In this document: in pieces, positions 1-61,676 of the stretch
How positions within the stretch are numbered: the first letter of the stretch is position 1
Layout of the letters: the number at the start of each line of letters is the position of its first letter
From: a virus
Length of the DNA: 64,000 bases
Virus record (IMG/VR): IMGVR_UViG_3300030419_007131
Coordinates: 62,001 to 126,000 of that record
Strand: one strand, 5' to 3'
The notes under the pieces: generated by a model
Told to the model about the DNA's origin: nothing
The model's input: only the letters and a program-made list of their open reading frames with translations
Databases searched by the model: none
Made by a program: the position numbers and the translations under genes

Positions 1-444
1 GAAAACATTAACCCCGAAGAATGGGAACCCATGCCAACTAGTAAAAAAGAGATCCCGCCTGAAAAGGAATCGGAGCTTAAAAGCATCTACCGTCGCATAG
101 CTGCCAAAACTCATCCAGACAAAGCGATAGCCAGCGGGACTTCGCAAGAGAAAAAAGCGCAGCTAGAGAAAACTTTCATACAAGCCAAAAAAGCATATGA
201 TGAGCATAACTGGTATGCGCTTTATCGTATTGCGGTAGCTCTCGATCTTCCTTTCGGAGAGCCGAGTCAAAATAAAATCGACTGGATCGAGGAAGATATC
301 GAGGCAGCAATGGCTGAGATATCCAGGATCGCTGGTACCGTCGCGTGGGTATGGTATAACGGCGACGACACAGCCAAGCTGCATGCGTTAAAAAGCTATT
401 TTCAACAAAATTATGGACTAGAGCTAGTACACACTAATGATTAA
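1..444 (+). CDS. J-domain (DnaJ-like) protein, 5' end outside window
   Basis: This is a J-domain protein, a class that stimulates Hsp70 (DnaK) ATPase. The helix II and loop signature is visible as SIYRRIAAKTHPDK, with the obligatory His-Pro-Asp, followed by a helix III-like segment (KKAQLEKTFIQAKKAYDEH). The frame is open to the first base of the window, and an ATG at 31 has no good ribosome-binding site. J-domain helix I is missing from what would follow that ATG, so the gene most likely begins upstream and the window holds its C-terminal part (about 147 codons). The last 60 residues (WIEEDIEAAMAEISRIAG) look helical and match nothing I recognise. It is the only convincing plus-strand gene, and its 3' end overlaps the convergent SbcD-SbcC gene by 11 bases. 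A host DnaK partner is inferred. The J-domain call is firm and the start is not. Confidence 0.75.
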   Translation, partial: ENINPEEWEPMPTSKKEIPPEKESELKSIYRRIAAKTHPDKAIASGTSQEKKAQLEKTFIQAKKAYDEHNWYALYRIAVALDLPFGEPSQNKIDWIEEDIEAAMAEISRIAGTVAWVWYNGDDTAKLHALKSYFQQNYGLELVHTND

Positions 445-3400
445 CTTTGGCATATCCGCCTGTTTTGTCAATCGTGACCTCTACATCCACGATATCTTTA
501 AGAGAATCTAGATGGGAAATAAGAATAACAGTTTTAAAATACATCTTTATAAGCTGTAGAATCCTAATAAAGCCTTCCATATTCTCCGCATCTAAAGCAG
601 TGCCTGGCTCGTCGAGAATAAAAATGTTTCCCTTGGGGAGGGATGATACAGACAGGAGCGCCAGGCGGATTGCCATAGCGGCCACAGTCTTCTCAGCGCC
701 CGATCCCATCTCGATGGGGCGCGGATCGTGTTTGGGGTGCTTAATCAGAATATCAAGCTTGCGACCATCCTCCTGAAAGAAGACTTCAAACTCAGCAATG
801 TTGGAAAGCACCTTGGCTATCTCACCATTAATCACTGGGAGGCGCTTTTTAATGATGTCATAAGCGATTCCGTTAGAGTGGGTGCATCGCATAAACAAAT
901 CGTAGGATGCATACTCTTCACGAATATTGCGTAGATCTTCTTTCTTTTCTTGAAGAGTTTCGATCTTTTGCTCTAGCGAGCCGATTTGTCGGTGGTGATC
1001 ATTTATTAATTCTTCTAGCGAAATGATCGATTCTTGAGTAGTCTCGATTGTTTTTTGAACTTGATTTCTCGAAGATAAAAGATTTTCAATATTTTTTATT
1101 AAATCTTTCTTTTCTTCATACAAATCAATCTTAGTATTTACTTCGTTAAGGGTCGTTCTGTGGGCCTTTATCTTGGCATACAACCTCTCGATCGAAACCT
1201 TGTTGTCCCTCTTTTCGATCTCAATGTTGTTCTTGTTAATAATAATGTTATTATAGTTGTCAATCATTTCAATCATTTCGGCAGAATTAACCAAAGCTAT
1301 TTTAGTCTTATAAGATTTAGCATTTTCAATCTGATCAATGATGTCTACTTCTAAAGAGGGCAGTTCCACGGACGCCAAGTGCGCATCCTTAATGAATTGG
1401 CACATAGGAAAACTACTTCCACACGGCACTTCATCCAACAACTCTACTTTCTTACTCATCGCCTTATATTCATTATCAAGCAATCGAGCGTGACTCACGG
1501 TTTTATCATACTTCTTTTTAAAGTCATCGTATTCTTTCTTTTTTTCTAAAATATCTTCAATATCAATCGTCGTAAGAAAATCATCATACTCACTTAGTTT
1601 ACTATCATATTGTGCATTTTCGTCCTTAAGCTCAACAATATTAATATTAGTATCTTCAATTTTCTCTTGAAGAGATGTCTTAGTTTCTAAAAGCGCCTTA
1701 ATATCCAGTCTCTCAGCTGGGATTGATTCGATTTGTTCCGTTAAATCAGCAAACCGTTGCCGGGCGGTGGCAAGGTCTTCTCTCGCCTGCGTGTGGTTGG
1801 CGGTTTCCTCATCTAGTTCCTGTTGGGCTTCTTGCCATTGAACCTCTGCTAGCGCAATATCATTATCGTAACTAACGTCTCCCACTCGTCGCATGACCGC
1901 CTTAAGCTCTGAGCTATCTTCGTGGGCCATTTTAAACTTTCTCTCGAAAATATCCAAATCCAAGAACTTTGCTAAAATCTCCTTTCGTCGCGTTGACCCC
2001 TCCTTAATAAAGGATAGGTTATCCAGCTGACTCGACATAGAGGTTAACAAGAAATCCTCTACGGTTCCAAATCGTTTGCGTATATGTGCATCAGTTTCGT
2101 TGCGTGTTGTTCCATTGAGACTGATTTCGTCGCCTACAGCTGGATCCACACCACTAAAATCTAGAAAGGTTCGAGCCTCATTCGTGACCTCACCCTTCAG
2201 CTTCTTTACATATTTTTCTGACTGACGTTCGATAGTATAGGTTTTGTCGCCCACTTGAAGCTCAACAACGCCGCGGCAGTCTTTCTTGTTCTGGTTAATA
2301 ATGTTGTAATTTTTTCTTTCATTTTTCGAAGTAGTATTAAACATGGTATAGAGCAAACCGTCGATGATACTAGATTTACCAGAATAGTTCTTACCAAAAA
2401 TACCCACTATACCATTGAGGTTGGCGAAGTCGACGCTGTTGCCCTCACCATAATTGAACAGATTGTCCCACTCAAACCTATTGATGTTCCAGTTAATGTT
2501 GCGCGCGACTTCTTCCGTCTCTTCGATCTGTGAGTTATATCTTCGGTTTAGGTCGAAGACTCGTTGCAACATCTCTTCACTTGGTGCATAGTCAGCTAAG
2601 TACTCTCGAATGAGATTCTCCTGGACGCCCTTGTCTCGCAGGTTTTCTACCTTAAAGCTCCCGCCAATATTCACTGTTCCTCGCTCCCCAGCGGCGCGAT
2701 TTAGAAACGTAATACTCTCCGGCTTAAATCGATGTTTGGCCACATCAACTGCCTTGCGCATAACATCAAGCGGAAGGTTATTGTTACTCACGAGACGCAA
2801 GCGCGAGGTCGGAGGAATCTTCGTACCCTTGGGCATTCGTCCTTTTGGCGTGAGTTCGATTGTTACGAATGGTTTTGGATTAAGCAAAACATGGTGACTC
2901 ACGCGAAATTCGTTTTTGTCTTCAATTTCCCAAATGAGAAATCCCTTGTCATTTGTCTCGCCGTGATTCTGCTGAACAGTTGAACCACAATACCTCACGC
3001 GGCCTTCAGTGTCGAGAATCTGATTTGTCTTGTGGATATCGCCAAGCATTGCATAGTCGTGACCGGCGAAGACGCCGACGTCATGATCGCCGTGATCCAT
3101 TACCCACCCCGTGTCGGTTTTAACTCCAGACACAGAACCATGATAAAGTGCGATGTTAATGCGCGAGTTGTCGCTTGGAGCAACCCAATGATTTTCATCA
3201 AAAACCGACAACACATTGAGGGCGAGATTCGACTCCAGAACAGTTTCTCCGGAGTTCTTAAGCAAATGTAGGTTCGGTAGATCCAAAGCCTTCACAATGG
3301 GCGACAGCGCGTCCTGGCGGCTGCTGTTCTTTAGGTTGCCGTCGTGGTTCCCCAGAATGATGTAGGTTGGTGCGATTTTCGCTAGATTTGAAAAGAAATC

Positions 3401-3586
3401 GGAGCAAAGCTCAACGAACTCTGGTGAAATCTGTGTCTTGGTGTGGGCGATGTCGCCGCAATGAACGATGTAGTCTACGTTCTCTTTGCGAAGGATATCG
3501 TAAAGTTGTTCGAATACCTTCTTGTATTCATAATGAAATTTTAAGTTTTTTATATGCGTGTCCGCAAGGTGTGCTATTTTATACAC
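434..3586 (-). CDS. SbcD-SbcC (Mre11-Rad50) fusion: recombination nuclease/ATPase
   Basis: A single 1050-residue protein joins the nuclease and ATPase halves that are normally two proteins (T4 gp47 and gp46; bacterial SbcD and SbcC). Residues 1-350 are a metallophosphoesterase: D9-x-H11, GD44-45 and the GNHD motif at 79-82 bind the metal pair. The SMC-like ATPase follows: Walker A (GKNYSGKSS) near 395, long coiled coils around 550-930, an MGSGAEKT signature near 960 and Walker B (IFILDEP) near 985, then the H-loop (LISHLDS). Mid-coil VPCGSSFPMC near 719 probably forms the zinc hook, with C-x6-C rather than the usual C-x2-C. The role is end resection, recombination-dependent replication and possibly host DNA degradation. 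The start is GTG at 3586 with AGGGG eight bases upstream. A sigma-70-like promoter at 3613-3642 appears to drive it. Confidence 0.93.
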   Translation of the reverse strand: MYKIAHLADTHIKNLKFHYEYKKVFEQLYDILRKENVDYIVHCGDIAHTKTQISPEFVELCSDFFSNLAKIAPTYIILGNHDGNLKNSSRQDALSPIVKALDLPNLHLLKNSGETVLESNLALNVLSVFDENHWVAPSDNSRINIALYHGSVSGVKTDTGWVMDHGDHDVGVFAGHDYAMLGDIHKTNQILDTEGRVRYCGSTVQQNHGETNDKGFLIWEIEDKNEFRVSHHVLLNPKPFVTIELTPKGRMPKGTKIPPTSRLRLVSNNNLPLDVMRKAVDVAKHRFKPESITFLNRAAGERGTVNIGGSFKVENLRDKGVQENLIREYLADYAPSEEMLQRVFDLNRRYNSQIEETEEVARNINWNINRFEWDNLFNYGEGNSVDFANLNGIVGIFGKNYSGKSSIIDGLLYTMFNTTSKNERKNYNIINQNKKDCRGVVELQVGDKTYTIERQSEKYVKKLKGEVTNEARTFLDFSGVDPAVGDEISLNGTTRNETDAHIRKRFGTVEDFLLTSMSSQLDNLSFIKEGSTRRKEILAKFLDLDIFERKFKMAHEDSSELKAVMRRVGDVSYDNDIALAEVQWQEAQQELDEETANHTQAREDLATARQRFADLTEQIESIPAERLDIKALLETKTSLQEKIEDTNINIVELKDENAQYDSKLSEYDDFLTTIDIEDILEKKKEYDDFKKKYDKTVSHARLLDNEYKAMSKKVELLDEVPCGSSFPMCQFIKDAHLASVELPSLEVDIIDQIENAKSYKTKIALVNSAEMIEMIDNYNNIIINKNNIEIEKRDNKVSIERLYAKIKAHRTTLNEVNTKIDLYEEKKDLIKNIENLLSSRNQVQKTIETTQESIISLEELINDHHRQIGSLEQKIETLQEKKEDLRNIREEYASYDLFMRCTHSNGIAYDIIKKRLPVINGEIAKVLSNIAEFEVFFQEDGRKLDILIKHPKHDPRPIEMGSGAEKTVAAMAIRLALLSVSSLPKGNIFILDEPGTALDAENMEGFIRILQLIKMYFKTVILISHLDSLKDIVDVEVTIDKTGGYAKVNH

Positions 3587-3651: not shown

Positions 3652-3960
3652 TTATAATTCTAGCTCGTCGTCGGGGACACCAGCATGGAAGTCGGCGGAG
3701 GCAGCGCGGTCCTGGGCAGCATACAGCTCCTTTTTCAGCAGGTCCTCCAGATAGGCTTCGACCTCTTTATCTCCGGCCAAACCAAACAATTCGGCAGCGT
3801 CGCGGCCAGATTTTGCTCCTTTGGATGCGGCAACAATCGTCAACTTATTAATAAACTTCTCTTCGGGTGTGCCGCCTTCATGGCGGGGTTCCGTCTGAAG
3901 ATCTCCTAGTCCGATTTCTTCTCTAATAATTTCTTTTAGTCTTTGTTTGGTGATTTTCAT
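3652..3960 (-). CDS. Small protein with I-x-E leader peptide (leader protein 1)
   Basis: This 102-residue protein resembles no family I recognise beyond its first 15 residues (MKITKQRLKEIIREE). That segment is shared with the three genes immediately upstream. It reads as a basic amphipathic helix ending in I12-R13-E14-E15, which fits the [L/I]-x-E cleavage consensus of T4-type prohead proteases. The remainder is charged and mainly helical, with a central AAELFGLAGDKEVEAYLEDLL and an acidic end (DDELEL). A strong ribosome-binding site (GGAGGA, about nine bases before ATG) marks the start. It is the last of the four tandem leader genes and is followed by the promoter of the SbcD-SbcC gene. A packaged internal capsid protein is a hypothesis; a DNA-binding or targeting helix is the alternative. 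Confidence 0.75.
   Translation of the reverse strand: MKITKQRLKEIIREEIGLGDLQTEPRHEGGTPEEKFINKLTIVAASKGAKSGRDAAELFGLAGDKEVEAYLEDLLKKELYAAQDRAASADFHAGVPDDELEL
3911..3960 (-). repeat. Leader-coding direct repeat, copy A
   Basis: The 50 bases encoding the first 16-17 residues of the 3652-3960 protein match 4824-4873 at 46 of 50 positions, and the last 40 match at 38. The genes diverge completely after the repeat. This suggests recent duplication or swapping of the leader as a module. Confidence 0.85.
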
Positions 3961-3995
3961 TGTTAATCTTCCTCCGGAGGATCATCGCGATCCGG

Positions 3996-4376
3996 TCATT
4001 TCTCTCCCTCTTCCAGATCGTGCCAGCGACCTGTTTTAAGCCCTCGGCGAAGCCTGCCCACCGTTTTATCCGTGGGGGCGCTCACCTTTACGGCTTCTAC
4101 GGGCTCAACCTCAGCAAGACCAGCGCCATCGCGGTTGAGTGCGCTCTGGCGACTCATTGCTTTCTCGATACTACTGTATTCATAAGCGCCGTCGCGACCC
4201 CCAAACTTCGGTCGGCCACTTGAGTCGAGACCATGGAAGTGGGATTCTTTGGCTCCCTTTCCGGACATCCTTAAAACAAAAGGTGCATCCGCGTCATCAA
4301 GTTTGAGAGCGTCCCACTCATACTTCGTAAGCTCTTCTTTAATGATTTCTTCTAATCGGCGGCGAGTAATTTGCAC
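3996..4376 (-). CDS. Small protein with I-x-E leader peptide (leader protein 2)
   Basis: This 126-residue basic protein begins MQITRRRLEEIIKEEL, the same leader as its three neighbours but diverged in DNA sequence. I12-K13-E14 keeps the I-x-E position. The body is polar and rich in Gly, Asp and Arg (HFHGLDSSGRPKFGGRDG, then EYSSIEKAMSRQSALNRDG), with no recognised domain, and ends with a charged segment (DLEEGEK). The start is a GTG at 4376 sharing one base with the TAG stop of the upstream gene (TAGTG), which implies translational coupling. In T4, several different internal proteins carry a common N-terminal capsid-targeting sequence, and this row of unlike proteins with one leader recalls that. 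The role is inferred only from the leader and the gene neighbourhood. Confidence 0.75.
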   Translation of the reverse strand: MQITRRRLEEIIKEELTKYEWDALKLDDADAPFVLRMSGKGAKESHFHGLDSSGRPKFGGRDGAYEYSSIEKAMSRQSALNRDGAGLAEVEPVEAVKVSAPTDKTVGRLRRGLKTGRWHDLEEGEK

Positions 4377-4873
4377 TATTTAATGCTCTCCAACAAAATC
4401 TTCGTTTCCTCTAGTGACCTAATCGCCTCTCGAACTTGAGGGTGCTGTTCCAAATTACGAAATGCAGCTTTCTGTATCCTGGAACGAAGGCCGTCGGCCA
4501 AATCAGCAAGCGCCGTTATATCGTTCAGCAAAGCGCCCGGGCTGAGGTCATCCGCTTTTGACGCGGAAGCCTTAGAAGCCTCACCGGCACGGAGAATCGC
4601 AGAAACTTCATCTTTTGTATATTCCTCAGTGATAGCATTAGCGGCATCAGCGAGCGCTTGTATGTGTTGTCTGATTTTTTCTTTCTTTTTTGGATCTTTT
4701 TCAGTCTTCCAAAGGTTAAATAATTCTTGAGTGACCTTTTTGGCGTTCTGTAAAGATGCAAGCTTCTCTTGGGCTGCGGCGTGGCGCGCCCGAGTTAGTC
4801 CAAAAGTTCCTTCCTCGACTGCTCCAACTTCTTCCCTAATAATCTCTTTTAGTCTTTGTTTGGTGATTTTCAT
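4376..4873 (-). CDS. Small helical protein with I-x-E leader peptide (leader protein 3)
   Basis: This is the largest of the four leader proteins (165 residues). The leader is identical in its first 15 residues to leader protein 1. The body is almost wholly alpha-helical and probably coiled coil, with charged heptad-like stretches: HAAAQEKLASLQNAKKVTQEL, DPKKKEKIRQHIQALADAANA, then LLNDITALADLADGLRSRIQK, ending SLEETKILLESIK. No catalytic motif is visible. The ATG overlaps the upstream gene's TGA (ATGA), and the TAG stop overlaps the next GTG, so the genes form one translationally coupled unit. A cut after E14 would release a 151-residue helical protein. The function is unknown; an internal head or scaffold-associated protein is a possibility suggested by the leader. 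Confidence 0.75.
   Translation of the reverse strand: MKITKQRLKEIIREEVGAVEEGTFGLTRARHAAAQEKLASLQNAKKVTQELFNLWKTEKDPKKKEKIRQHIQALADAANAITEEYTKDEVSAILRAGEASKASASKADDLSPGALLNDITALADLADGLRSRIQKAAFRNLEQHPQVREAIRSLEETKILLESIK
4824..4873 (-). repeat. Leader-coding direct repeat, copy B
   Basis: This is the partner of copy A at 3911-3960 (46 of 50 bases identical, 913 bases apart). It encodes the leader of leader protein 3. The close DNA identity contrasts with the leaders of the other two genes, which are conserved only in protein sequence. Confidence 0.85.
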
Positions 4874-5085
4874 TCTAATTCTCCACGCTCTTCCATTGAG
4901 TGAGCAATTGCTGTCGCTTGTTTCGGATCTTTACCTTCCTTGTCAACCAAATAGGCGATCTTTCGAGAGATGCGCTCGTCCTTGGCTTTCTTGGCTTCTT
5001 CTAATTCCTGGGTTCCCCGATGAAACTCCCGATAAAAGAGTTCTTCGTGGATGATTTGCTTTAAGCGCGATGTTGAGATTTTCAT
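4870..5085 (-). CDS. Small protein with I-x-E leader peptide (leader protein 4)
   Basis: This 71-residue protein begins MKISTSRLKQIIHEELF, the fourth and most diverged leader, still with I12-H13-E14. The frame is open further upstream, but the ATG at 5085 has AGGAG correctly placed just before it, overlapping the TAG stop of the primase gene, so this start is preferred. After the leader comes a short charged helix (REFHRGTQELEEAKKAKDE) and then RISRKIAYLVDKEGKDPKQATAIAHSMEERGELE. That last segment, with its K-x-x-K-Q-A-x-A-x-A pattern, resembles small domains common in phage and bacterial proteins of unknown role. It heads the four-gene leader set directly downstream of the primase gene. Confidence 0.7.
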   Translation of the reverse strand: MKISTSRLKQIIHEELFYREFHRGTQELEEAKKAKDERISRKIAYLVDKEGKDPKQATAIAHSMEERGELE

Positions 5086-5092
5086 TGGACTC

Positions 5093-6028
5093 CTAGACGG
5101 ACATTGCAAGCGTCAACAATAAATAGTTGTCTGGAGTGATAAGGGTCGCATTTTCCAAGCATTTCTGGAATTGCTCTTTGTTCATCGAGCCAACATCTTC
5201 ATTGTCGCGAATATCAACCTTCCAAACCTCGATATCGAAATCCAACAAAGTCTTAATGATCTCAAGCTCTTTCTTCTTTGCGTCAGGATCCAGAGCCACG
5301 TAAACTCCCGCATCTTCTTTCACGATCTTGCGAAGCAAAACAGAGTTCTGATTTAGCGTAGATCCCAAGATGGGCACAGCATTTCTGCCTGCCGTAATCG
5401 CATCGAATACGCCCTCTACCAGAATGATATCGGAACTCCAATCCACAAACAAATCATTGAAGACAATGTTCTTGCTCACTGGTGGGTTCTTGTACTTAGG
5501 ATAGAACTTCTTGTCGTAGGAGCGTGACACAAAATAGGTCAAATCACCCTCGTCGTCAAACGACGGAATGATAATGCGGCCTTCGTATTCGCCACTGGCG
5601 CAATACCCCATCTTCCACCACACGATATCTTCTCGGTTGATACCTCGCTTACGAAGATAGTTGCGGGCCGCGAAGCCTGTCGGCGGCACATCCCGGGTGG
5701 TCAAGGACACAAACCCTTCAGGCATTTCTAAAATTTGTTTTTCTTCGACTTTTTCTTCGAATATATCTTCAAGCTTGTCATATTCAACAGCGTCTGTAAA
5801 CTCTCGCCACTGCGCTTTGTCGTGGTTTGTGCCGAACCGACGAATAACTCGGTAAATGTTTTTGCCACGCGTATCGCAGACCCAACACTTGTAATAACCT
5901 TTGTCAATGTTGACAGAAAACTTGCGCTTATGATGATCGCAGTAAGGGCACTTAAATAAAAACTCATTGTTGGACCTATAAAAAGGCCCCAGTACATTAG
6001 TTAGAATCTTGAGTTTCTTGGTTTTCAC
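5093..6028 (-). CDS. DNA primase (DnaG/T4 gp61-like)
   Basis: This protein makes RNA primers for lagging-strand synthesis. Near the N-terminus is a CHC2-type zinc-binding domain (CPYCDHH, then KCWVC 20 residues on). The middle and end carry a TOPRIM catalytic core: ILVEGVFDAITAG supplies the glutamate and VALDPDAKK the D-x-D pair that binds magnesium. No helicase domain follows, so at about 311 residues it is a stand-alone primase like T4 gp61 rather than a T7-type primase-helicase. A separate helicase must lie outside the window or come from the host. GTG at 6028, with a purine-rich GGTGGG upstream, is preferred; a TTG at 6049 in the same frame would add seven residues. It overlaps the resolvase gene upstream by 32 bases. 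Confidence 0.88.
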   Translation of the reverse strand: MKTKKLKILTNVLGPFYRSNNEFLFKCPYCDHHKRKFSVNIDKGYYKCWVCDTRGKNIYRVIRRFGTNHDKAQWREFTDAVEYDKLEDIFEEKVEEKQILEMPEGFVSLTTRDVPPTGFAARNYLRKRGINREDIVWWKMGYCASGEYEGRIIIPSFDDEGDLTYFVSRSYDKKFYPKYKNPPVSKNIVFNDLFVDWSSDIILVEGVFDAITAGRNAVPILGSTLNQNSVLLRKIVKEDAGVYVALDPDAKKKELEIIKTLLDFDIEVWKVDIRDNEDVGSMNKEQFQKCLENATLITPDNYLLLTLAMSV

Positions 6029-16198: not shown

Positions 16199-17125
16199 TT
16201 AGCAGGGCTCCTCATTTTCATCGCCGGGCGCGCCTGTGCCCGCGGAATAAAGATCTCGATTAAGCTTCAATCTAGAGGCCGAAGTGGACAGGGCCTTCTC
16301 GCTTATATTTAGTTCCTCGATGACTTCTGGCGGAATTTCCTTATCTACTAAAACATTCATATAATACTCTACATTATCAGTAGTAGAAGCAGCAAAAGTC
16401 TGCACATCTTCAGGAGTATAAGCTTTCTGGATATACCCGGTCGAAGAAGAGTGAAAAACTTGAATATCGAAGTTCTCTTTAAGGAAATCAGTATTATTCT
16501 CATTTATTTCCATCATTAAATACTTCTCATTGAGGGCCAAAAAGATATCCGTATTGCCTATTCTCTCGCTAATGGAGATCGGTGAAAGTTGGGGATCCCC
16601 AGCTTTAAAATAAACCTCATAATCTACGGTGATATTCAACTGCGGGATGTTATTAATATACCCATCTTCATCCAAGTATGATACTGAAGATGAGATCTCA
16701 GGCTGAGACAGTAGTTGAAGCTGCCATGCGGCACTATATTGCGACAATAATGAAGCATTCCCTAAGGGATATGCATCTATTTTGCCAGTTTCTGCGAATA
16801 CAGGCTGTTTAAACGCCTCCACGTTTTCAGCGGGATCTGAATTAGTATTGCCGATTGCAGTCTGAAGATTGTTCAGGAACTTCGTTACACGCGTTTCGGC
16901 GCCAGTACGAGTAGGAATTATCTTAAGTTTGGGAGTCTCCTCTTGAATGCGCCCTTCTGACTGGTTTTGGTTTTCCACGTATCCAGACGCGGCCACATCA
17001 TACAGGATGTCGTCGTCAAAAAACGCATAATAGGCAGGGTCTAGTTTTCCTATTGCTAATGAATACTTGCCATATTCGGTAAGCACAAAATCTAGCACCT
17101 CTTCTTTTTTATTAAAAAATCCCAT
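16199..17125 (-). CDS. Virion-type protein with MGF N-terminal domain (B)
   Basis: This 308-residue acidic protein is a paralogue of the gene at 8958-9905 through its N-terminal 45 residues (MGFFNKKEEVLDFVLTEYGK, then YAFFDDDILYDVA). Beyond that the two diverge. This copy has a beta-rich middle (LNITVDYEVYFKAGDPQLSP) and an acidic helical stretch (VDKEIPPEVIEELNISEKAL), ending in a short Cys-containing tail (GDENEEPC). The ATG shares a base with the TAA stop of the giant upstream gene (TAATG), and the AGGA within the giant gene's last codons provides the ribosome-binding site. Its position between two giant virion genes supports a structural or assembly role; the exact function is unknown. 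Confidence 0.6.
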   Translation of the reverse strand: MGFFNKKEEVLDFVLTEYGKYSLAIGKLDPAYYAFFDDDILYDVAASGYVENQNQSEGRIQEETPKLKIIPTRTGAETRVTKFLNNLQTAIGNTNSDPAENVEAFKQPVFAETGKIDAYPLGNASLLSQYSAAWQLQLLSQPEISSSVSYLDEDGYINNIPQLNITVDYEVYFKAGDPQLSPISISERIGNTDIFLALNEKYLMMEINENNTDFLKENFDIQVFHSSSTGYIQKAYTPEDVQTFAASTTDNVEYYMNVLVDKEIPPEVIEELNISEKALSTSASRLKLNRDLYSAGTGAPGDENEEPC

Positions 17126-20100
17126 TACTTCCTACTCTTCTTGTTACTTGAATAACTACCACCAGATTTATTTCGTGACTTATTTTGTGTATAAGTGCCA
17201 GAACGCCGCTTACTTTGTTGGCTTTTCTTGTTACTCTTTTGTAACTGGCCGCGGCTCTGCTTCTTGTTGCTCTTCTTTGACTGTGATTTATCTTGTTTTT
17301 GATTCTTTCTAGATTTCCACGACTCGGTTGTTCGATCGACCTTATCTTGCTTCTGTTTCTGCTCTCTGTTCTGCGTTTTGGCGCCGGTCTTACTGCCAGA
17401 CTTCGAAGATCTCTTATTTTGATATCTGCTGCCGCTCTTGCCACCTGACTTCGAAGGCCCCTTGTCTTGGTATTTGCCGCCGCTCTTTCCGCCGGTTCGA
17501 CTCTTCCCGGTACCCTTATCATCAGTCCCACAATCAGCATCTGCCGTGCCCGGGGGTTGGTTGGGAGCTACACGACCAACAGGATCTGGCCTACGAATCG
17601 TAAGTTGTTCGCCCTCGCTAAGATCGAGGCCAATCTTCATATCTGCCGACACATACTGCACCTCTTCTTCAATCTTGGCAAGCTCAACTAAGGAGAAGTA
17701 ATCATACGGCCAATTGTAACTATAAGGCGTCGTAATTCGAGGTGTCAGAGCACTCACATTATCCGTGACCAAAGAGCGCCGATAGACTTCGAAATCTTTC
17801 TTGGCCTTCCGCTTGACCTTAAATACCAGCCACTGAATGTCATCCCCCTTATCCAAAATAAGGTCAACAAGTTCTTTTTCTTCCACTTCAGTCTCGGCGT
17901 GCTCAAATCTGTCGTCCAAATCGGGGGGGAGATTCTGCCAGATATCGGTGATATCTTTCTCGGTAAGTTTTGTGGAGAATTCAAATACATACATCAGAAT
18001 TGCATCTACTGTATCAAAGTCGACGAAGTTAAATCTTGGTGGGAATACATATTTGTCCATTGCGGCGACCAAGTTTTTATAAGTCTGTGAACGAGGGTCT
18101 GGCTGAGTAAATGATTCTAGAAGCTTTCCGTCTTTCGAGACTGTGCGCACCTCTTGTTCGGGGAACTTAATAAATTCTCGTCGATTCTTGATAGACTTGA
18201 ATGGAATGGCAACAATCGCTTCTTCAAGCTTGTACTCTTTCTTGGGTTTTCCAACGCGCTGGGGGGTTCCCACCTTGAATCCAACAACATCAGCCAGGGA
18301 CTCCCCGCTGCCATCTTCAAGCGTCACCCAGACGCCATCGCCGCCCGTACAGCGATTGCCATATTGGTGCCACATTCCGCGGGTTATCATCTGAGTAGCG
18401 CTTGCGGTGGCGTCGGTCTGAACATAACTTTCCGCAGGCACCGATCCAGTAGAAACCCCAGCAAAGTTCAGAATAGGAGTCTCAAACTTAGACTGGATTA
18501 ACCATCTGTCTTTCTGGGTGACGGTCTGATCCGGGACCTGTTGTAATCGTTCCAAAAGATTGAAAGAGTTATCTATTTGCATGCGGATGTCAGCGTTTGG
18601 ATCGCCAGCGCCGATGCTAGCATTCGCTGCATTAAGGTTGGGAGTGTATTCTTCTCTAAAAAATTCCGTAGTGGTATTAGAAATAATATCATTCAATGTA
18701 GGATAGCCACTTGAAGATGCACTATAAACAAACTTAACCGTCGCCGAACCATCATAGTAGGGAGGAGTAACGTGGGAAAAGCTTAAACTCCAGGGCCCGC
18801 CTTGCTTGTGGGGCAGACTGTTAACGGACGCGGCGCGGACTGACGCGCCTACAGGAGGACCAAAAGCACTACGTCGGGAATACATGTCAAATTTAACTTC
18901 GGCCGAAGAGCTTCGAGCGCACAAGGGATTTACATCGGAGCGATAGAGACGCATTACCATCGTATAGGTGGTTCCGTCTACAACCTTGCGGAAATTCTCT
19001 TCACGTGCAGACTGAAAATTTGTCAGCTCGCTCACAAACATATTGGTTGTTTCACATAAGAAATTATCAATAGCATGCTCATATAATGGACCATGCAGGG
19101 CGCAGGCGGGGGCGGAAAAAATATTGCGTTCTGGGGCAGAGCTGGATGCCACGCTTCCGGTAAACAAGAGGCCAAAGGCAAAGGCACCAGTGCTGGAGAC
19201 GCCCGGCGGGGTGCGCTCTTTTCTTAGCGATGCGGGGCCCCAGCTATAACTACTAGACGGGTGCCTATCAAGCAAGACGTTGAGGCGCCCATTTGGATAA
19301 TTAGAGAGGGCCGTCACATCTACAGAGGCGTCACGAGCGCCCCACTTGGTAATCCTAGTCTTAAGCCACTCATTTGAAAAATATTGTGTTGGATTGTATA
19401 AAGCTTCAAAAGGAAGCTGGGTCATCATGGCGGCCCCCAGTGACATGCCAAACGAGCTCAAGTCCTCAGTTTGAGGGCCCGAGCCCGAGCTTTGCCACAG
19501 AACATTGGCATCTTGGCCGTACGCCTCGAACCAGTTGCCGGGGTTTCCGCGATGAGTGCCGTAATAATTTCCATCTTTATCAACCGCTCTCTGGTCGCCA
19601 GCGCAAGCGAACTCGGGGACGAGGTCAGGGATGGCGTTACCAATTTGGGTGCCCATGAGTATGAAGTCGCTGGTAGCTAGGCCGGACTTAATTGTATTAA
19701 ATAAGATGCCCGGGGACATAAGAGGTTCCATAATTGGACGCAAAGGAAGACCTGGGGCAACCCGGGCAGTATGTGTAATATCAGCCGGGTCAGTAAATGT
19801 TCCTGTCATATAACATAATTGCGGCCCGTAGGACTGTGAGAAGATGCGAGCCAACTCCACCGTTCGTTCTGCTGGGTAAAACCCCCTATAAGGCACAAAC
19901 TTCAAAAGAGCGTCGCACTTTAAGGACACCTTGTCTCGCACAATCATGAGATCTCCAGATCGTTTTTCGTTTAAATCATCATCGACAACTTTAAAATATT
20001 TCAAGAAATCAGAATTTGTATAGGTCCTATAGAACCCCTCTTCCAAGCTGCTGCTGACGGCCGCACCCGAAAGTTCAAAAATATTATCTACCGGAGAAAG

Positions 20101-23100
20101 AAAGTCGCCTCCTTGATCTTCAAGAAGATACTTCATATGAGAGCTTATGCGGAATTCGGGCAAAATAGAATAATCTTTACCAACCGCGCGAATTCTGTCA
20201 GAGATCAATGTATAGTTTTTGTAAGGATCTTTTCCGGCTTGAGAAGGAGCCATCCATACGGTATCGCCCCCAAACGCTACTTCGCTCGCTGAAACGATTC
20301 GATTCGCAGCGCCTTCTGCAGCGCTGCCATCGCCCTGTGTATTTCCGGCAGGCACCCTAAGCGCATACGTTGGCGCGGCATGAGGAGAAGGATGCTCCCG
20401 TTCGTTCCAGGATGTGCCATACACACGGGGGAGGCCGTTCTTTTGCGTCCAGGTTCCATAAAGGTTCATAAGGAGTCCCGAACCGTCTGAGGACGTGGCA
20501 GATTGGGTGACACTATAGTTGAGGTGCGCGTCTAGAGGCCAAGTGCTCTGAGAGGCAATCATGTTGGCGGGCTGGCCCAGGGTTCCGGTGATTGCTGTCG
20601 AGGCGCCTCCATAACGAAGACTGCGGAACTGACGATTAGAGTTCCAGATATTGTCAACATTATAGGCAGTGCGGCCGCGAACAGTCGCCCTAAAGGCATT
20701 CTCGGCCGCTGGATAAATTCTCTGACTATAGTCCATCATCAGACTAAGATCGCTGTTTAGAGCGAACTCGACAATCGAATCGTAGACCTTCGGCTGAGTC
20801 AGGTCGATCTTTAGACCAAGCCTGTTATCCAGGGCTGTGTGTGAAAAATAATCAAATTGATTTGAAAAGGATGGTGCCTTCATCATAATGTTATTTATGG
20901 GGTCGGCGTCTTCGGTATTGTCTTCGAAATAAAAGTAGAAGGGCGAAGCTTCTTGTGCTATCGGCGCTTCAATGAAATCCCTAAACTCATTGGGGCGAGA
21001 GGGATGAGTATACCCTGTCACCTTTTCACCGACCCGATTGGGTATAGCGCGAGGATAAACAGTGGTGCCTATAAGGTTGTTCTTGCGCAGGAGTCGGGCA
21101 ACTTTTGTTTCACCTCCGCGAATTTGTTTCCAGGTTGGCCAGCCGTAAGGGCCATTGCGGTTATTAAGAGTGATGTTTAAAGTGCTGCCGGCTGTCCAAA
21201 CGCTTTCGCGCGAAAGGTTTACGTTGGTGGCTATCCCGGTAGATCCAGAGAGTGCAAAGGCGGAGCGGTTGTAAATGGTCGTAGTAGGAGTGCCATCGGT
21301 AGCGATACTCAAATGATCACCAAGCTGCTTAGTTGCCTCATAGTTAATGTTGTTATAATCGGGGAGAGTTTTCGAGGCAGGCTTGACATATGCTGCTGGC
21401 TTGCCGCCGGCGAAAGGATCAAAGCGCCACCATGCAACCATCGCACTGCCAGTGTTCCAATCTATACGACTAGGATCTAGGGGTGCTCCGACGCCATATA
21501 ACGAACACCAATTCCACGACAAACCATAACAGTCCGTACCAATCGCCACACTTCGAGAAAGAATCAGAATATCAGCGATATTTCCATCCCAGCCGCGGGT
21601 TCCATCGCCCGAGTTACCAATTGTACATCTGTCTGTGGAAGTGGGCAGTTCTATTACATCATCGTTAACAAGAGACCCGGACACAAATCCATTAAAGCCT
21701 CGATACCTCGCGCCGGTATAAGCGAGGGGGTCGCCGCCGTCCATCCATACATAAAAGTAATTGGGGCGCATCGCGGGGAATCCCGGAGTAGCGGTATTGG
21801 AGCCTCCGCCATATGTCATAACAAAATGATGCCATTCCCCTGTGCTACCAGAGCGTCCAAAATAGTTCGTGGGAGTTACAATCTGATGGCGCCCCGTTGC
21901 TGTTTGAAGCTCAAAAGTTAAGCCGGAGCCGTTCCAAAAAATACGCCTTGCACCGTCGAAATCAATTACTCGACCGTATCCACCTCCTCCAGCGGCGCGA
22001 GGCTTAACCCAGCCGGCAATAGTGAACATATTAGCATTGGCTCCGGCGCCCCCGACGATTGGTTTCCAGATACTAGCGGGGCCAATGTCTACTTTGGAAT
22101 CTACTCCGTTAAAATCGCCTGAGTAGGCGCCGGCGATGGGTCCTTCTTCTGACGGGCTTTTGTAGCTGCCAGATCCTATTATGTGAGCATTTACTGAAAT
22201 CGGGTCGATCAACGACGTACCCAATGATCCAACAAAGTTATTTGGTTGTTCCCAATGATAGAACATATGATCGGATCCAGTTATAACTTGGGCTAATGTA
22301 GAAGCACTAGCACAGGCGGGTGAATCATATCCATAAATGCGGCCGGCTGAAGAGGATACCACCTGGGCCACCGTGGCCAACGTCGATGGTGTTTTGACAA
22401 CCAAAGAATCCGCAATCCATTTATACTGCTGCTTGGATTGTGGAATAGCGTGTTGCACAAAAAGATTATCATAAATTTTAAACTCTGATACGGGAGGCCA
22501 CTGTGTCGGCGCCGTAGTCGCTGTTGTATAAGGAGGCTGTAATGCGCCGCCCCAGCTAGGAATAATCTCTACACTTCCAACACCAGTATAATTTGTTGAG
22601 GCAAAAGGAGTTGGGGCGCGGTTCAGGCCGGAAGCTTTTGTGTCGCCGGCCGCAGCATCAAATGTGTAAAGCGCGCCGAGGCCATTAATAAAGGTATCTT
22701 TCTTGAAGATAGCATCCCCATCGCCATGATAACCATCATACAGGTCCGATACTTCTCGGGCTGTGAGATCCCGATTCCAAACAGCCACGTTCGCTATTTG
22801 CATCGTCGCTGCCCCCAATGCCGCATAGCCCGAAACAAAGTTCGTAGGCGCGGTGCCACCCGAGGCGGTAAAGTTCAAGGGATACCGCACCTGTCGATTC
22901 CAGAGAGAGTGAAAACCCCAGTTAGAAACCTCATAGGGCAGGTAGTCCTGGAAGCGTACGCGCTCTGCATCCATTTGTAACTCACCATTCAAATACATAT
23001 AGCAATTCAGGACCGGGACGGCTTCGTCGAAAACAGAAGACCCAGACTGCGCAACGATTGTTAAGTGATGCCACTGGCCCCGTTTGAGTCTGCGGCTGCG

Positions 23101-26100
23101 AAGCGCTATTGAACCATTGAAGTAGCCGGAAGCACCGGCAATCTTACAATATAAACGATCTACATTGCCGTTGTTTCCAAGGGTGTCGGGATCTCCCAGC
23201 CACACGATCTCTAAACCAGAATAACGTCCGGAGTTATAGGGCCCATCGCCCACTCCGAAAATTCTCCGCAGGCCCGTCGTACCGTCGTCATCGCGATTAA
23301 TCCACATCGAAATGGTATAAGACTGTGCTTGATCGGCCGAGGACGTACTTAACGTTCCGATTGCATCTTGCCAAGCTGCAGTAGTTCCGAGGTTCACCCG
23401 TTGTGTCGTCATCGATCCCGCTGGGCCGGCCAAATAGCTTTTAAAGCCTGCTTCTCCAAGAGCCCATTTCGCATTCCTATTGGTTTTTGTCCACGAAGGT
23501 ACGGTAACGTAACTGCCGGAAGTCACTGAGCCATAGGCTGCATCAGAACCAAATGGACCACAGTGCAGACTGGCGCGTTGATTGAGGCCACGATTCTTGC
23601 CAATCTGATCGACAACACGGATAGAATTTTGTATAGAAGGATCAACAGAAGCACTTCCCTGGATTCCATAATCGATAACCTGGCGGTTACGATACGGGGA
23701 AGCATTGTATACGGAAAGTTCTTCGTGGGCCGGGTCTAGGTATCCACGAGATAGCGTTCTATAGTCGCCCGGTGCACTAAAGCGGTTAACGATAATAGAT
23801 TGGTTTGAATTAGCGCCTTGTCGATCAGGAAGCGCATAATCTAGTTGTATGCCGTCTGATGATTCGAGAGAGCCCCAGCCGGCTGCAGAGCCTGTAAGGG
23901 TCGGAGCAAAGGTGGCTGGCTGGCCCAATCGTCCATTATTATTTCCCTTCTGGTCATATATATATTCACCGGAAATCCCCGAATCACGCGCGTCATCGCC
24001 CATTCTCCACCACGAAATGCACGAAGGGGCATAAGACAACAAGAAAGCCAGATTAAATGGTTTGCCATTATTATATAAAGTCTCCACCTCAGCCGCGCTA
24101 AACTCCTTGTTCCATATGCTAACCTCGTCCATATAGCCGTTGAAGGCCTTGTTTGTACCACCATTGGCACCAAGGGCGCCTATATTTGTTTCTATCGCAA
24201 CCGGACTGTCGGTATTGGTGCTTCCGTCGTCATTAACGCCGTTAAGATAAATGTGGAGTGCGCCGGCAGCGCCGCCGGCATAAGTCACAACAACGTGATA
24301 CCATGTATCCGCAGCAATCGTTGTACTACTTTGTCTCCAAGCAGAAGGGGCGTTGGTCCATTGTAAAATATTAGAAGCGTCCGTACGTATATATAGGTAT
24401 CTATCCGAGGTGCCGAACTTCATCAAATAAGGCAGAGTATCTGTTATCGAGGTAAGATTAATCCACAGTGAAATAGTAAAGGGTTTTGCGTCTGCACCAG
24501 CGCCGCCAATGGCCGCATCCCAGGTGGCGGCCGTTCCAATATTGATATAATCTCGATATCCATCGCTGCCGCCATCAAAATACATTGACTTTGTATTAGA
24601 ATCCCCCTGATGATTGGCCAACGGAGAAAGCGTGCGAAGCGCCGCAGCCATCGGATTCAGCGCGAAACTAAAGGACTGATCGTTAAAGAACGGATCATTA
24701 ACCGTCCGGGCATTACTATTGATAACCTGATAATTCTTCTGATAGTTGCCGATCGGATTATGAAGAATGGTGCCGCTCAAGCGCGTTCCCACCGAAGCCG
24801 TTGTCATCAAGATGTTCTTGATATTAACTGGGCGCTTGGATGTCTCGTCCCGGAACCGATAAGCCATAGGCAGATCCGGCAGGTAACCATACTCAGCACT
24901 GCCCGAAGGAGTATCTGCAAAGGGGTAGTTTGCCGGGACAATGCCTAGGGCGCCCGAGTAGCCGCTTGCAGCCATGCTGCCGGCATCTGCACCCAAAGCG
25001 AGGCGGAAGCCCTCAGCGCGGTTCTCACGCGTATCTGAGCCCTGATTCAACTCCGTGTGGCGATACTTGCGACCACCAACAAATTTCTCCGTGAAGGGCC
25101 CTTGCGCAGGAACATCATGATCATTCACAAAATCATTATGTAGATTGGTTATCATTGTTCCCGACTTCCACTGCTCTACTTGAATATTGTAGCCAGTTCT
25201 AACTGAGGAACTGTAAAGACTAAAGGGTGCAAAGATGTTTCCGTTTGCTTTCTTATCCGGGTCTGCGCCCCCATCAGCACCGAAAGTATTAATGCTCGGA
25301 TCTAAGGAGAAGCCCAATCGTTGTTTGAATGTGGGATGATATACGTCAACAGTTTCAATCAAGTCCTCGACATCTGTATCAAAGGACAGCATGATATTGA
25401 TCGGAACGTTAGAAGCCGAAACTGTAGGTCCAAAGGGCTGAATTGCTGGGAACAAAGCATTTGGCCGGTTAATAGGAGGCCTGCCTACGCCGCCGAAAGT
25501 GACAGCTCCCTCTGCATCGAACCTAAAGGGGGCACCAATGCGCCGGTCATAAGATTGGCGGATTGCATTCAAAAGATCAGCGCGTACGGGATTGAGGCTA
25601 CTCGAAAGCGGAAGATCGTCTCTCTCGGCAACATAACGCCACCAGTAAACATTCTTATTCTCCTGATAATTAGCGACAGTAGTATAAGTTCCGCCGCCGA
25701 CCACTGCTGTATCTGCAGCGCTCATTGTTTCTATGGTAGCTCGGCTATTATTTAATATTTGCCAGCTTCCGGAAGCGTTATTCACTCCCTTTTGATCTTT
25801 GATTTCTGCGACTGCATCGTTGGCGGCCGAACCAAATCTCCACCAAGAAACTAAGTCCGAATAAGCCGAATGGGTTGTGAGATTCTGGGGGCCCGGATTA
25901 AAACCAGTTGCAGGAGCAAAACCAGTAGTCTTGTTATATATCTCTGCTACTTCGGAGGCACTCAGCTTCTTCCCCCACAAACTCATAGTAGCTATCTCGC
26001 CGGCCCGGAAAGTCTCATTTGCATTGCCCGCTGAAAATGCAGCATCAAGCATCGATCCTATGCGCGCACTGTTGTTAACTGTAGGCACCGTTCCTATAGG

Positions 26101-29100
26101 CTGATAGGTGACACTAATAGTTTGAGCCACCCCGTTAACATAAATGACCGGAACGTTTGCTGTGTCAGAGGCATCATATGCAACTGCAATATGGCGCCAA
26201 GAATCACCAGAAATTCCAGCGCCGGATGTAATCCATTCACCATTCCTGCCGGTAAAATTGATACTAAAATACACTTCGCCACTGGAACGCAAAGATACTC
26301 GTCGGAATCCATTTTCGCCAAACATAAACCATTCACGGTGGCCATCCGAAGGATTATATTTAACCCAGCCGGCAAAAGTAGATGCCGAAGAACTCAAGCT
26401 TGTCCACGATGAGTCGAGGGCGATATCATATCCTACAGCAACCGCGGGGGCCGGTGCATCAGGCTGTGTCAGCGCAACATACCTGGTATTATAGTAATCA
26501 TAAGTGGTGGTGTATATTGGGTGCGCCGGAGCATGCACATGCTTCCAGTTACTTATCTGAGTGGGGTTGGATGATCCAATCTGTCTCTTTGTCGGGGAAG
26601 TATTTGAGAACAAGAGGGTACCAGCAGGAAGGTCATCCGGTGATCCTCCCGCAGTGCTGTCAATCACGTTCACACCGTTAAACGACGCTGTGATATCCAG
26701 GGCGCCGACTCGCTCCAAAAACGGGAATATTCTTCGATACTTGGGGCGCTCTAAAAGATGGTTCTCAATAATCGTGCGCACATTTGCAGAAAAGTCGGCG
26801 GAGGCCGGAACCAATTGTCCCAACATAAAGGACAGCGAGGAATCAAACCACTTATAAAACTCATAAAAGCGATCAAAATCCATAGTATCGTTAGACACTT
26901 TTTCGAAAAACTTTCTCCTCATGAATTGCAGCTGCTTATAATGCGGGCGATGCTTTTCGACAGAATCACCGATTAAGTTATGTAAATCCTTAAGATTTGC
27001 AAAAGAATTGATCATCTCTTCGGAAATAACCTGATACATGCTCTTTTCAAAAGCAAAATAGAAGTCGGTTGGCCTAGTTTCCGAAGTAAAAAGTTCTTGA
27101 TCCTGGGTGCCGAGGACCTTAACCATGTCTTGAGAAACAATATTTTCTGGGAGATTAAGTTTCGATGAAACAACAAAGTCCTTGTCTATAGCCTTAACTG
27201 AAGATGCCAAGAAGTTATTTCCGAGACCAGTGTACTGTCGATTAAGAAGGGGGCCCAAAACACCAAACGTGGTTGCAGTAGCGGAACCAGATGCCAAATC
27301 GTCCACCACAAACTGCTGACTTGCGTTCGAACCTGTGTTAGTTAAGAACTCCCAGTTAAAAGCCAGAGTATCGATCTTCGCGACGTCGCCATTGGAACCG
27401 CTTGTATCAAATTGGAATGCATAAAGGTGCGGCTGCAGCGCTCCATGATTCTCGGTATCTAAGATATGGCTATTAAGGGTTTCATCATTCAAATAATCGA
27501 GCCAGAAACGGCATGCGTTTACCTTAACATCGCTAGTTTGAAGGACGTTTCCGGTGAAATCTTCACGGTGGGCGCCGATATAGACACGTCGCGAACCAGT
27601 TATGAAGCCAGCTGGGGGCGCACTAACCGTTCCCGAAACAGTGAATTCCTGCATAATATCGCCAGCTTCGGCCTGAACACCATGAAGCTCCACGACATAG
27701 TTACCGTCGAGACCGCCATAGGCAGCCCCAGCGCTGTTTGAAAGCCCCGCAATTGGATATTTCGCGGGTCGAACTCGGACCGCCAGATTCCATCGTGTGT
27801 TGTCGTATACTCCTTCATAAAGTGGAGAGGTAAGATAGGGAACAAAACCGCCGGCGGTGCCAGTGAGGACAAACCTCGCATTATTTGAAGTCCTTTCATC
27901 CCTAACTGCATATACTTGGAAGTTAACCCTATCAGGCGACGGCCATGTGGTTGCGGCTGTCTCTGTAGTCCCATGCACACCAAACAAAGAAGAAGACACA
28001 ACATTCGTGTCATAATATACAATGGACTCCGGATCCAGCTTTTTGGGCATGAGCACTTCTGTTTCAAGCGTATAGGAATACCCTCCTGTTAAAGAAGTAA
28101 CCGAGGGAAGATATCCAACGGAGTTGGCATTCGAGGAGTCGGCATAGTTATAAACATTCGCATATTGATTTTCGGCAGTATTGAAATTAACAAATCGATC
28201 CGTGACGATAACGTTTCTGCGACTATTTCGCATCTCATACTGAACGTTATCGGCATACATGTTGATCTTGACAAGCTCGTCGTCAATGCCAAAACATCGA
28301 ATAAGGTTTCTAAAAGCTTTTTCAGTACCCTTAGACTTATAGATATAACTTAAGTTGTTATATATGTTCTGATAGATGGTATTTTTAATGTCATGTAAGG
28401 ACTTGTCGAAAATCTTATTTTCGCTACGATCAGCAAGCTTTTCTAAAACGTCCGCATCAACAAATAAATCTGGTGCCACAAAGCCATACGTACCCAAGAA
28501 CCTTTCAGAAAAAGGAATGGGCTTGTTGCTGCCGCTGGGATAGCTGATGTCTTTAATCTTATTGAGGCTACCGATCTGCAAGTGCAAAGTGTCAAAGTAG
28601 CTAGACAAGATTTGTGTTAGTTTCTTGAGGTCACCGCTTCCCTCGTCGTCCTCTTCGGTTATCCAAGACGGCACCGAACTGTACATGGAGGCATTGTTGT
28701 TAACATCGTGTTCGGAGCCACTAAGTTCCAGTTCAGTATTGAGCGCAACCACCTTAGGGTGGAAAGCATAAATAATCGGATCTTCAAACTCTTTCGTAGC
28801 AGCCGAAGAAGAAATTATAGCAGAGCCAGTATTCCGGGAAGATGAGTTATATCCTGTCCACGCTCCGTTTGAAAATCGACCTGAGTAATCCAGCACCGTA
28901 CTATCGGTGGCTGACTGACCTGTAATCCCTTCGTTGAACTTAAAGTAAACGCCCAAATCAACATTGGCGGTCTCACTTGTATCTATAAAGGGTGTAGGAT
29001 CACTGTTAACACCGCCGCCCACTTGGGTAAACCAAAAGCGCCCAATATCTTGCGAAGTTCGTTGAGTCTTCCAATACCTAAATTCGTCCAAGGAGCCAGA

Positions 29101-43357: not shown

Positions 43358-44308
43358 TTACCAATGAAAATTTTCCTTATAATAATCTACAATTGCGCCA
43401 ATTTCATCATCAAAAATCTTTTGCGGACTCCAACCTAAGCTTCGAAGTTTTTCATCATTTAATGAATATCTAACGTCTTGGCCCGGTCGGCGGTAGTCTA
43501 AGTTGGTAAACTGTTCCAATTCTACCTCTTTCTCAAAGAAATGTTTAAGGATTTTTTTTACTGTTTCGACGTTTTTTTGTTCAAAACTTCCTGCCACATT
43601 GTAAATTTCATTTCGTGCGCCGCTTTCAATAATAGTTGTTACGGCGGTTGCGGTATCCGAGGCATGAAGCCAGTTCCTCACTGGCTCGCCTCGATCATGA
43701 AGACGTATTTTCTTGCCTCGCTGTAGCAACTTAATGCTTAGCGGAACAAGTTTCTCTGCATGCTGATATACTCCATAATTATTGGTGGGACGTAAAATAA
43801 TATACTCTAAAGCATATGTTCTAGCCCATGCCTTGATTAGCATATCGGACGCGGCCTTAGACGCCGAATATGGATTGCTCGGCTTCAGTACGTCTCTCTC
43901 AGTATGAGACCCCTCCGCAATATCTCCATACACCTCATCTGTACTGAAGTGGAAAAAGACCGGGGCCTCACAAACATTTGTAGGCTTATACCTAATGATA
44001 TCTAATAAATTTTTTACCCCATTCACGTTCGTGTGAAGGAAGTCGTCACTGTCTATAATACTGTTTCCCACATGTGTTTCTGCGGCAATATTAATAACAT
44101 AGTCACAATCGGGAAGACTCGTTAGGGTTGCAATGTCCTCGTTTTTAAAAGTGAAGCGAGGGTGCGCCTCAAAATCGGCCAATAAATGAAGGTTTGCGGC
44201 GTAGGTGCACTTATCGATTCCATAAACGCGCCAGCCCTTGTCCAAGCAAGCGCGAGTCACATAAGACCCGATAAACCCTAAACATCCCGTTATTACGACG
44301 AGCTTCAT
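43358..44308 (-). CDS. dTDP-glucose 4,6-dehydratase-like SDR enzyme
   Basis: This is an extended short-chain dehydrogenase/reductase of 316 residues. The NAD-binding G-x-x-G-x-x-G motif is ITGCLGFIGSY at the start. The catalytic set characteristic of 4,6-dehydratases is present: FSTDEVYGD supplies Thr-Asp-Glu, and NPYSASKAASDML supplies the Tyr-x-x-x-Lys pair. The RPTNNYGVYQ and VRNWLHASDTATAV blocks fit RmlB-type enzymes, while the length is slightly below the usual 340-360. It would convert an NDP-hexose (dTDP-glucose if a true RmlB) to its 4-keto-6-deoxy form, the branch point for most deoxysugars. It is the last gene of the 18-kb glycan cassette. The nucleotide specificity is not visible from sequence. 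Confidence 0.85.
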   Translation of the reverse strand: MKLVVITGCLGFIGSYVTRACLDKGWRVYGIDKCTYAANLHLLADFEAHPRFTFKNEDIATLTSLPDCDYVINIAAETHVGNSIIDSDDFLHTNVNGVKNLLDIIRYKPTNVCEAPVFFHFSTDEVYGDIAEGSHTERDVLKPSNPYSASKAASDMLIKAWARTYALEYIILRPTNNYGVYQHAEKLVPLSIKLLQRGKKIRLHDRGEPVRNWLHASDTATAVTTIIESGARNEIYNVAGSFEQKNVETVKKILKHFFEKEVELEQFTNLDYRRPGQDVRYSLNDEKLRSLGWSPQKIFDDEIGAIVDYYKENFHW

Positions 44309-46268: not shown

Positions 46269-46269
46269 T

Positions 46270-47681: not shown

Positions 47682-47690
47682 AATCTACCT

Positions 47691-49357: not shown

Positions 49358-49358
49358 C

Positions 49359-59142: not shown

Positions 59143-59143
59143 T

Positions 59144-60409: not shown

Positions 60410-60410
60410 T

Positions 60411-61664: not shown

Positions 61665-61676
61665 TAATGTGTTCCT

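Follow-up and report, generated by a model that had tools for sequence, protein, structure and literature searches.

A gene array with a common 15-residue leader

Why do neighbouring viral genes encode small proteins that begin alike and have no detectable similarity thereafter? The window analyzed here, 64,000 bases in length, corresponds to positions 62001-126000 of the 165,065-base virus record IMGVR_UViG_3300030419_007131 and contains four such genes. They are co-directional on the minus strand, encode, in this order, proteins of 71, 165, 126 and 102 aa and are located between a primase gene and a Mre11/Rad50-like gene:

434..3586 (-): fused Mre11/Rad50-like (SbcCD-like) nuclease-ATPase, downstream flank of the array; 1050 aa; Pfam Metallophos 4.6e-12, SMC_N 1.1e-10
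3652..3960 (-): leader protein 1; 102 aa, ATG, MKITKQRLKEIIREE followed by the body; no Pfam match
3916..3960 (-): leader of protein 1, residues 1-15; candidate cut after I12-R13-E14
3996..4376 (-): leader protein 2; 126 aa, GTG start, VQITRRRLEEIIKEE followed by the body
4332..4376 (-): leader of protein 2
4376..4873 (-): leader protein 3; 165 aa, ATG, MKITKQRLKEIIREE followed by the body; extra VEE/G site at residue 21
4829..4873 (-): leader of protein 3
4870..5085 (-): leader protein 4; 71 aa, ATG, MKISTSRLKQIIHEE followed by the body
5041..5085 (-): leader of protein 4
5093..6025 (-): DnaG-type primase, upstream flank of the array; 310 aa; Pfam DNAG_N 6e-7, Zn_ribbon_DnaG 4.5e-6

Each of the four array genes is preceded by a Shine-Dalgarno-like sequence, with overlaps of 1-4 bases between genes 2 and 3 and between genes 3 and 4. 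The leaders follow the consensus M-[KQ]-I-[TS]-x3-L-x2-I-I-x-E-E, and the leader DNA of proteins 1 and 3 is identical at 43 of 45 positions. Based on the amino-acid composition of the window, the pattern M.I[TS]...L..II.EE is expected at a given start with a probability of about 1e-8; four leaders in a row are therefore not due to chance. Without their first 15 residues the four bodies showed no significant mutual similarity (best E = 2.8), and full-length matches among the four proteins were driven by residues 1-17. A Pfam search of the four proteins revealed no credible family. The original prediction, made from the sequence of this locus, had described four tandem proteins at positions 3652 to 5085 with a common 15-residue leader and unrelated bodies. 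Genes, coordinates and the lack of relationship behind the leader were all confirmed. The four leaders it had listed are present, but the second begins with GTG, so that its residue 1 is coded V, and a fifth leader gene (MKITRQSLKDLINEE) exists at record position 136182, outside the window. The same record also has several starts of a second type, e.g., MKLLLENWRKYLTEGE and MKLMMEGWRKYQLLTEAQ.

Head proteins and prohead protease of the phage

In phage T4, internal head proteins carry a common N-terminal capsid-targeting sequence (CTS), which is removed by the gp21 protease after [L/I]-x-E. Terminase, portal and major capsid protein (MCP) of the record analyzed here are T4-like according to PHROG matches, and a protease gene is found among the head genes:

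52705-53301 of the record: prohead core protease S77 (PF03420), E = 1.7e-31, 109.7 bits against a cut-off of 27; between the portal and the T4-like MCP genes

The motifs GELDHP and ISSRG are invariant among relatives of this protease. The H of the first and the S of the second, which we take to be the catalytic residues of S77, are both kept. The record represents a T4-like phage of 165 kb whose gp21-type (S77) prohead protease is intact.

The capsid protein of the record contains [LI]xE at residues 9, 34, 50 and 59, i.e., clustered in its N-terminus, and the capsid protein of Flavobacterium phage immuto has such sites at similar positions. The gene immediately preceding that of the MCP, in the scaffold position, encodes a protein with 21 [LI]xE sites against 8.7 ± 2.5 expected from shuffled sequences. 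L-T-E or L-S-E is found near the start of the S77 chain itself in most relatives. T4 was used as positive control: gp22 contains 16 sites (5.9 ± 2.1 expected), gp23 shows LTE65/A, and ipII and ipIII have only MKTYQEFIAE/A in common. As far as can be judged from sequence, the [LI]xE sites of the capsid protein, putative scaffold and protease of the record resemble those of T4 gp23, gp22 and gp21. From the sites in the capsid and scaffold-position proteins and from the T4 controls it can therefore be inferred that the phage should own a protease cutting after [LI]-x-E.

A protein of about 140 aa, encoded outside the window (record 52249-52692; L005:12249-12692, minus strand), has a leader-like start, MKKSELKKILKPLIKECIKEV. 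In many relatives a protein of this type is encoded just after S77 or one to two genes further on. It is possibly a core protein which the leaders mimic or join.

Distribution of the leader and its association with S77

For identification of further leaders, viral contigs were scanned with a degenerate-DNA pattern for MKIT...L..II.EE. This gave at least 120 matching rows, with 170 leaders among the matches listed. Leader-bearing records (51) contain 1-12 copies with wide synonymous variation, and the reversed pattern did not occur in the same 51 records. Since synonymous sites vary freely across phages while the peptide is kept, the leader peptide is under selection. A search of 84,980 genomes of bacteria and archaea with the same pattern gave only 16 stretches, and a host origin of the leader was rejected for this reason. 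The 16 stretches lie mostly in MAG contigs; S77 was present in 3 of the 12 genomes.

S77 was detected in 31 of 50 leader contigs compared to 5 of 40 controls (Fisher p = 1.4e-6). For contigs of 15-100 kb the numbers were 20/37 and 2/33; for contigs of at least 100 kb they were 11/13 and 3/7, which is not significant alone (p = 0.12). The control contigs were chosen by an MKIT-type start pattern and are unmatched for phage type, and part of the association may simply reflect occurrence in T4-like phages. Leaders were found in two of the 40 control contigs, fragments of 58 and 38 kb that both lack S77. None of the five S77-bearing control contigs contains a leader; the leader is therefore not universal in S77 phages. 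The leader search that had been proposed with the original prediction thus found the leader to be common in phages and associated with S77. The opposite outcome, a predominance of the leader in phages lacking an [LI]xE protease, would have spoken against the prediction but was not observed.

Leader genes are common next to S77, portal and capsid genes. Among 30 S77 neighbourhoods that were read, most show a leader-type start adjoining S77, often between portal and protease, which is the position of gp67/gp68 in T4. In many other leader records the leaders are scattered over several places. Our impression from contig origins and MAGs, without a count, is that these uncultured leader phages are mainly marine. 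A short-peptide tblastn search of the leader against cultured phages gave no match at E <= 10, but the query is too short to be informative. Among the genes read in the cultured phages Mel-JY01 and RM378, which have related capsids, no clear leader was found.

In the cultured Flavobacterium phage vB_FspM_immuto, reading of the genes revealed leader-like starts, MKKSQLRQIIKEAL, MKKSQIVKAVQEVL, MKKSELVKLIKEEL and MKKSQLREIIRKEL (L412:8493-9251, L412:18660-18881, L459:42251-43316). Two leader-like starts are located shortly before the primase. A repeated start, MEN-FDLKKFLVEN, is perhaps a further leader class.

A second leader class and the proteins behind the leaders

A second class of leader, MKLL-x-ENWRxYLxE, occurs in the same phages. 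Among the matches listed, 205 class-1 leader proteins fall into 175 body clusters, 152 of them singletons; for class 2, 127 leader proteins form 80 body clusters. Few class-1 bodies have known domains, namely kinase (AAA_33) and GNAT, and class-2 bodies include Zeta_toxin-type kinase, NUDIX, GDSL, HD, M23 and amidase domains. The M23 peptidase, amidase and GDSL lipase are unexpected for proteins stored in a head.

Both classes are found on homologous kinases, which begin with MKITNKQLRQIIKEELNRVLRENMG in L122/L135 and with MKLLLEGWRKYLNEQDEPTAKK in L382 and show 64% identity over 210 aa. The kinase gene of L135 lies immediately upstream of S77. Immediately downstream of S77, two proteins of 473 and 474 aa (L131, L132) have only their first 22 residues in common. 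AlphaFold2 of the kinase pair yielded a model of low confidence (pLDDT 53), in which residues 5-23 form a helix ahead of the first strand; it was not used as evidence.

A 330-aa protein without Pfam match, encoded beside S77 (L151:429-1421, minus strand), carries an N-terminal leader and a C-terminal leader-like stretch, SISKERLQEIIKEEIDNRKKMM. T4 Alt is cleaved at both ends, and the L151 protein with leader-like stretches at both of its ends recalls it. An assignment of this protein as ParB-like was dropped in the absence of Pfam support.

Leader exchange at the array locus

Relatives of the primase were found in 44 viral contigs, most of them 78-100% identical. In the loci that reach as far as the SbcCD-like gene, the interval behind the primase contains variable sets of leader genes, from none to six. 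The primase flanking these variable loci is mostly 78-92% identical, and the SbcCD-like flank is kept. Three distant records (47% primase identity) have no leader genes in this interval. The 94 leader genes of 32 loci belong to 34 body families, and class-1 and class-2 leaders occur on the same bodies. One exchange is seen between L456 (MKINKAKLRQIINEEVASFIDEKKDKVSKKISYLMDKE) and L433 (MKLILENFRKFVNEGEDKVSKKISYLMDKE), with bodies 85% identical over 177 aa, and another between L446 and L420 (88% over 113 aa). Between L415 (MKITKQRLKKIIKEEMDAMRGADRPGAGIED) and L438 (MKLIMENFKKFINEEEDAMRGADRPGAGIED), and also L441, the junction is at residue 14/15.

The proteins of the window have relatives at these loci. 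The body of the 71-aa protein, KIAYLVDKEGKDPKQATAIAHSM, is related to bodies behind class-2 leaders in L433 and L439. A relative of leader protein 1 with the same type of leader and body start (MKLTKQRLKEIIKEELGLGDLQTEPRHEGGTPEE) is present in L449/L059, and a relative of the body of leader protein 2 is found in L419 behind the leader MKITKQRLKEIIKEE. In the array clade, pairs of leaders that encode the same peptide show 94-96% DNA identity, compared to about 31% on both sides. We infer that a cargo array with rapidly changing content is located between primase and SbcCD-like gene, and that the four genes of the window represent one copy of it. Such rapid turnover would fit cargo under host-defence pressure.

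The leader is thus a module at the protein level, which occurs on unrelated bodies, is exchanged on homologous bodies and is often found in phages that also have S77. It had been described as a single mobile tag. Its mobility is supported by both the unrelated bodies and the exchange; the leader itself is real, but at least two interchangeable classes exist.

Candidate cleavage sites

Leader anatomy was analyzed in 120 starts that were fetched without requirement at residues 13-15 and do not match the fetch pattern. Of these, 111 have E at residue 14, though it was not selected for, and the end of the leader (I12-x-E14) matches the protease motif [LI]-x-E. Residue 15 is E in 78, A in 19, V in 8 and S in 5 of the 120 starts (E 74 and A 18 among the 111 with E14); at the sites of T4 internal proteins it is A. 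A second [LIVM]xE, which was part of no search pattern, is present at residues 17-26 in 66% of the E14 leaders compared to 17% in comparable windows further on. The P1' residue of this second site is A, G or S in 36% against 20% elsewhere (p = 1e-4), and [LI]xE/[AGS] peaks at residues 18-22. The near-invariant E14 and the enriched second site therefore give two candidate cuts, one after E14 and one after about E18-E22. A cut after residue 14, as originally proposed, agrees with the conserved E14 but is not the sole candidate. Prohead proteases are known to cut propeptides at more than one place (PMC9026906).

Function of the leader

An exchangeable module with an [LI]xE end, in phages with a gp21-type protease and in head-gene neighbourhoods, is most simply explained, on the precedent of T4, as a capsid-targeting propeptide. 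We consider it very probable that the 15-residue leader is such a T4-type propeptide, removed by the protease; packaging, cleavage and injection are inferred, without virion data. As the prohead assembles, the amphipathic leader helix would dock its protein to the scaffold core while the shell is still open. Cleavage by S77 would follow after [LI]-x-E, i.e., after E14, at the second site near residues 18-22, or at both, and removal of the leader would free the body inside the head. The freed body would then be packed with the DNA, injected into the next host and may act there as an early host-takeover or anti-defence protein. Several observations stand against this reading. Besides the limits of the S77 association given above, residue 15 is in most cases E where the T4 sites have A, class-2 leaders on lytic-enzyme-like domains (M23, amidase) have no obvious fit to injected effectors, and no known function can be assigned to the four window bodies.

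It is conceivable that the leader targets the prohead core but is not cut at residue 14; E14-E15 would then merely terminate the docking helix, with the cut at about residues 18-22 or absent. The [LI]xE/[AGS] peak at 18-22 and the unusual E15 as P1' residue would be explained in this way, and in the L456/L433 and L446/L420 swaps E22 of class 1 comes to lie roughly where class 2 has E14. However, E14 is near-invariant within a fitting I12-x-E14 motif, the L415-L438/L441 junction lies at 14/15, and three of the four window proteins have the E14 site only, without a second [LI]xE within 26 residues. We regard this possibility as rather unlikely, but it deserves to be kept in mind. An uncut helix that binds another phage or host complex (tail, baseplate, replisome or membrane) would have to account for the frequent position of leader genes beside S77, portal and capsid genes, for their presence in several places in many other records, and for a leader-end [LI]xE that matches sites of the phage's own capsid protein. 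This reading is very unlikely in our view, although the window array adjoins the primase and SbcCD-like genes, the leader pattern is amphipathic and some class-2 cargo consists of peptidoglycan enzymes.

The N-terminus could also be nothing more than a handle for recombination or gene birth, a conserved 45-bp start cassette to which new ORFs are fused, without any role in localisation. The mosaic, rapidly changing bodies and the high DNA identity of same-peptide leaders between dissimilar flanks in the array clade would be expected from this. It does not account for the S77 association or for synonymous variation with a kept peptide across phages, and leader DNA homology cannot explain how two unrelated leaders swap on the same body; we consider such a handle alone to be highly improbable. 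That the four proteins are diverged paralogues which kept only their N-terminus, as the tandem arrangement and common start might suggest, was rejected as scarcely credible: no body similarity was found at E < 1, homologues of the bodies occur behind other leaders in related phages, and 152 of 205 leader bodies are singletons.

If the propeptide reading is followed to its general form, uncultured, mainly marine T4-like phages would use a general set of interchangeable cleavable tags to bring into their heads many and rapidly changing proteins (orphans, kinases, acetyltransferases, HAD/NUDIX and lytic enzymes), the tag alone would read out the injected repertoire, and new ORFs would become virion cargo by tag capture. 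We hold this wider picture to be probable, with clearly more reservation than for the leader itself. Phage proteins that are injected are the first to act in an infection, and those of T4 switch off host restriction systems. Outside T4 relatives few are known, because their sequences have nothing in common. If the leaders are indeed capsid-targeting propeptides, a text search of viral genomes would yield a very large number of candidates for injected proteins, most of them without known function and from uncultured phages. The leaders would also suggest that capture of a 15-residue tag turns new proteins into virion cargo.

Comparison with known systems

The closest known system is the T4 CTS of IPI, IPII, IPIII and Alt, which is cut by gp21. 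It likewise consists of a short leader with MK start and [LI]-x-E end on unrelated bodies, in a phage with S77 and a scaffold rich in [LI]xE, and its cargo genes vary among related phages (PMC9026906, PMC12373910). The T4 proteins Ip1-3 have only their packaging leader in common and inhibit GmrSD restriction enzymes, a different one in each case (PMC12373910); the precedent named in the original prediction is thus very close. A length of 10-19 residues was taken as short for leaders of this type. In contrast to the T4 CTS, the leader described here ends in I-I-x-E-E at residue 15, exists in two interchangeable classes, is found on hundreds of cargo types across phages and is often followed by a second [LI]xE. 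The window leader cannot be aligned with MKTYQEFIAE (at most 3 matching residues, ungapped) and was therefore classed as CTS-like in working, not as a CTS homologue. The hypervariable internal-protein loci of T-even phages, encoding injected GmrSD inhibitors, are also similar, with unrelated small proteins that have only the leader in common in otherwise conserved phages (PMC12373910), whereas here the interval from primase to SbcCD-like gene contains none to six genes and the phages are uncultured.

In the giant phages phiKZ and SPN3US (gp175/gp245), an S77-related protease removes N-terminal propeptides of head or ejected proteins, and gp53 and gp54 of SPN3US have an identical 15-residue N-terminus (PMC5694885). 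The SPN3US protease, however, cuts after A-x-E, several propeptides exceed 100 residues, and gp53 and gp54 are paralogues, not unrelated bodies. The kind of system is already known from the T4 CTS. The open literature searched, which did not cover subscription papers and preprints, contained no description of the leader sequences, of their scale or of the exchange between two classes; within this scope the leader remains undescribed, as had been supposed.

Further features of the window

Two other regions of the window were noted. A long run of minus-strand genes at 43358-62400 encodes proteins whose N-termini resemble, by appearance only, nucleotide-sugar epimerases, cytidylyltransferase-like proteins and glycosyltransferases. 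A single ORF of 4325 aa (17125-30102, minus strand) is located among apparent tail and baseplate genes.
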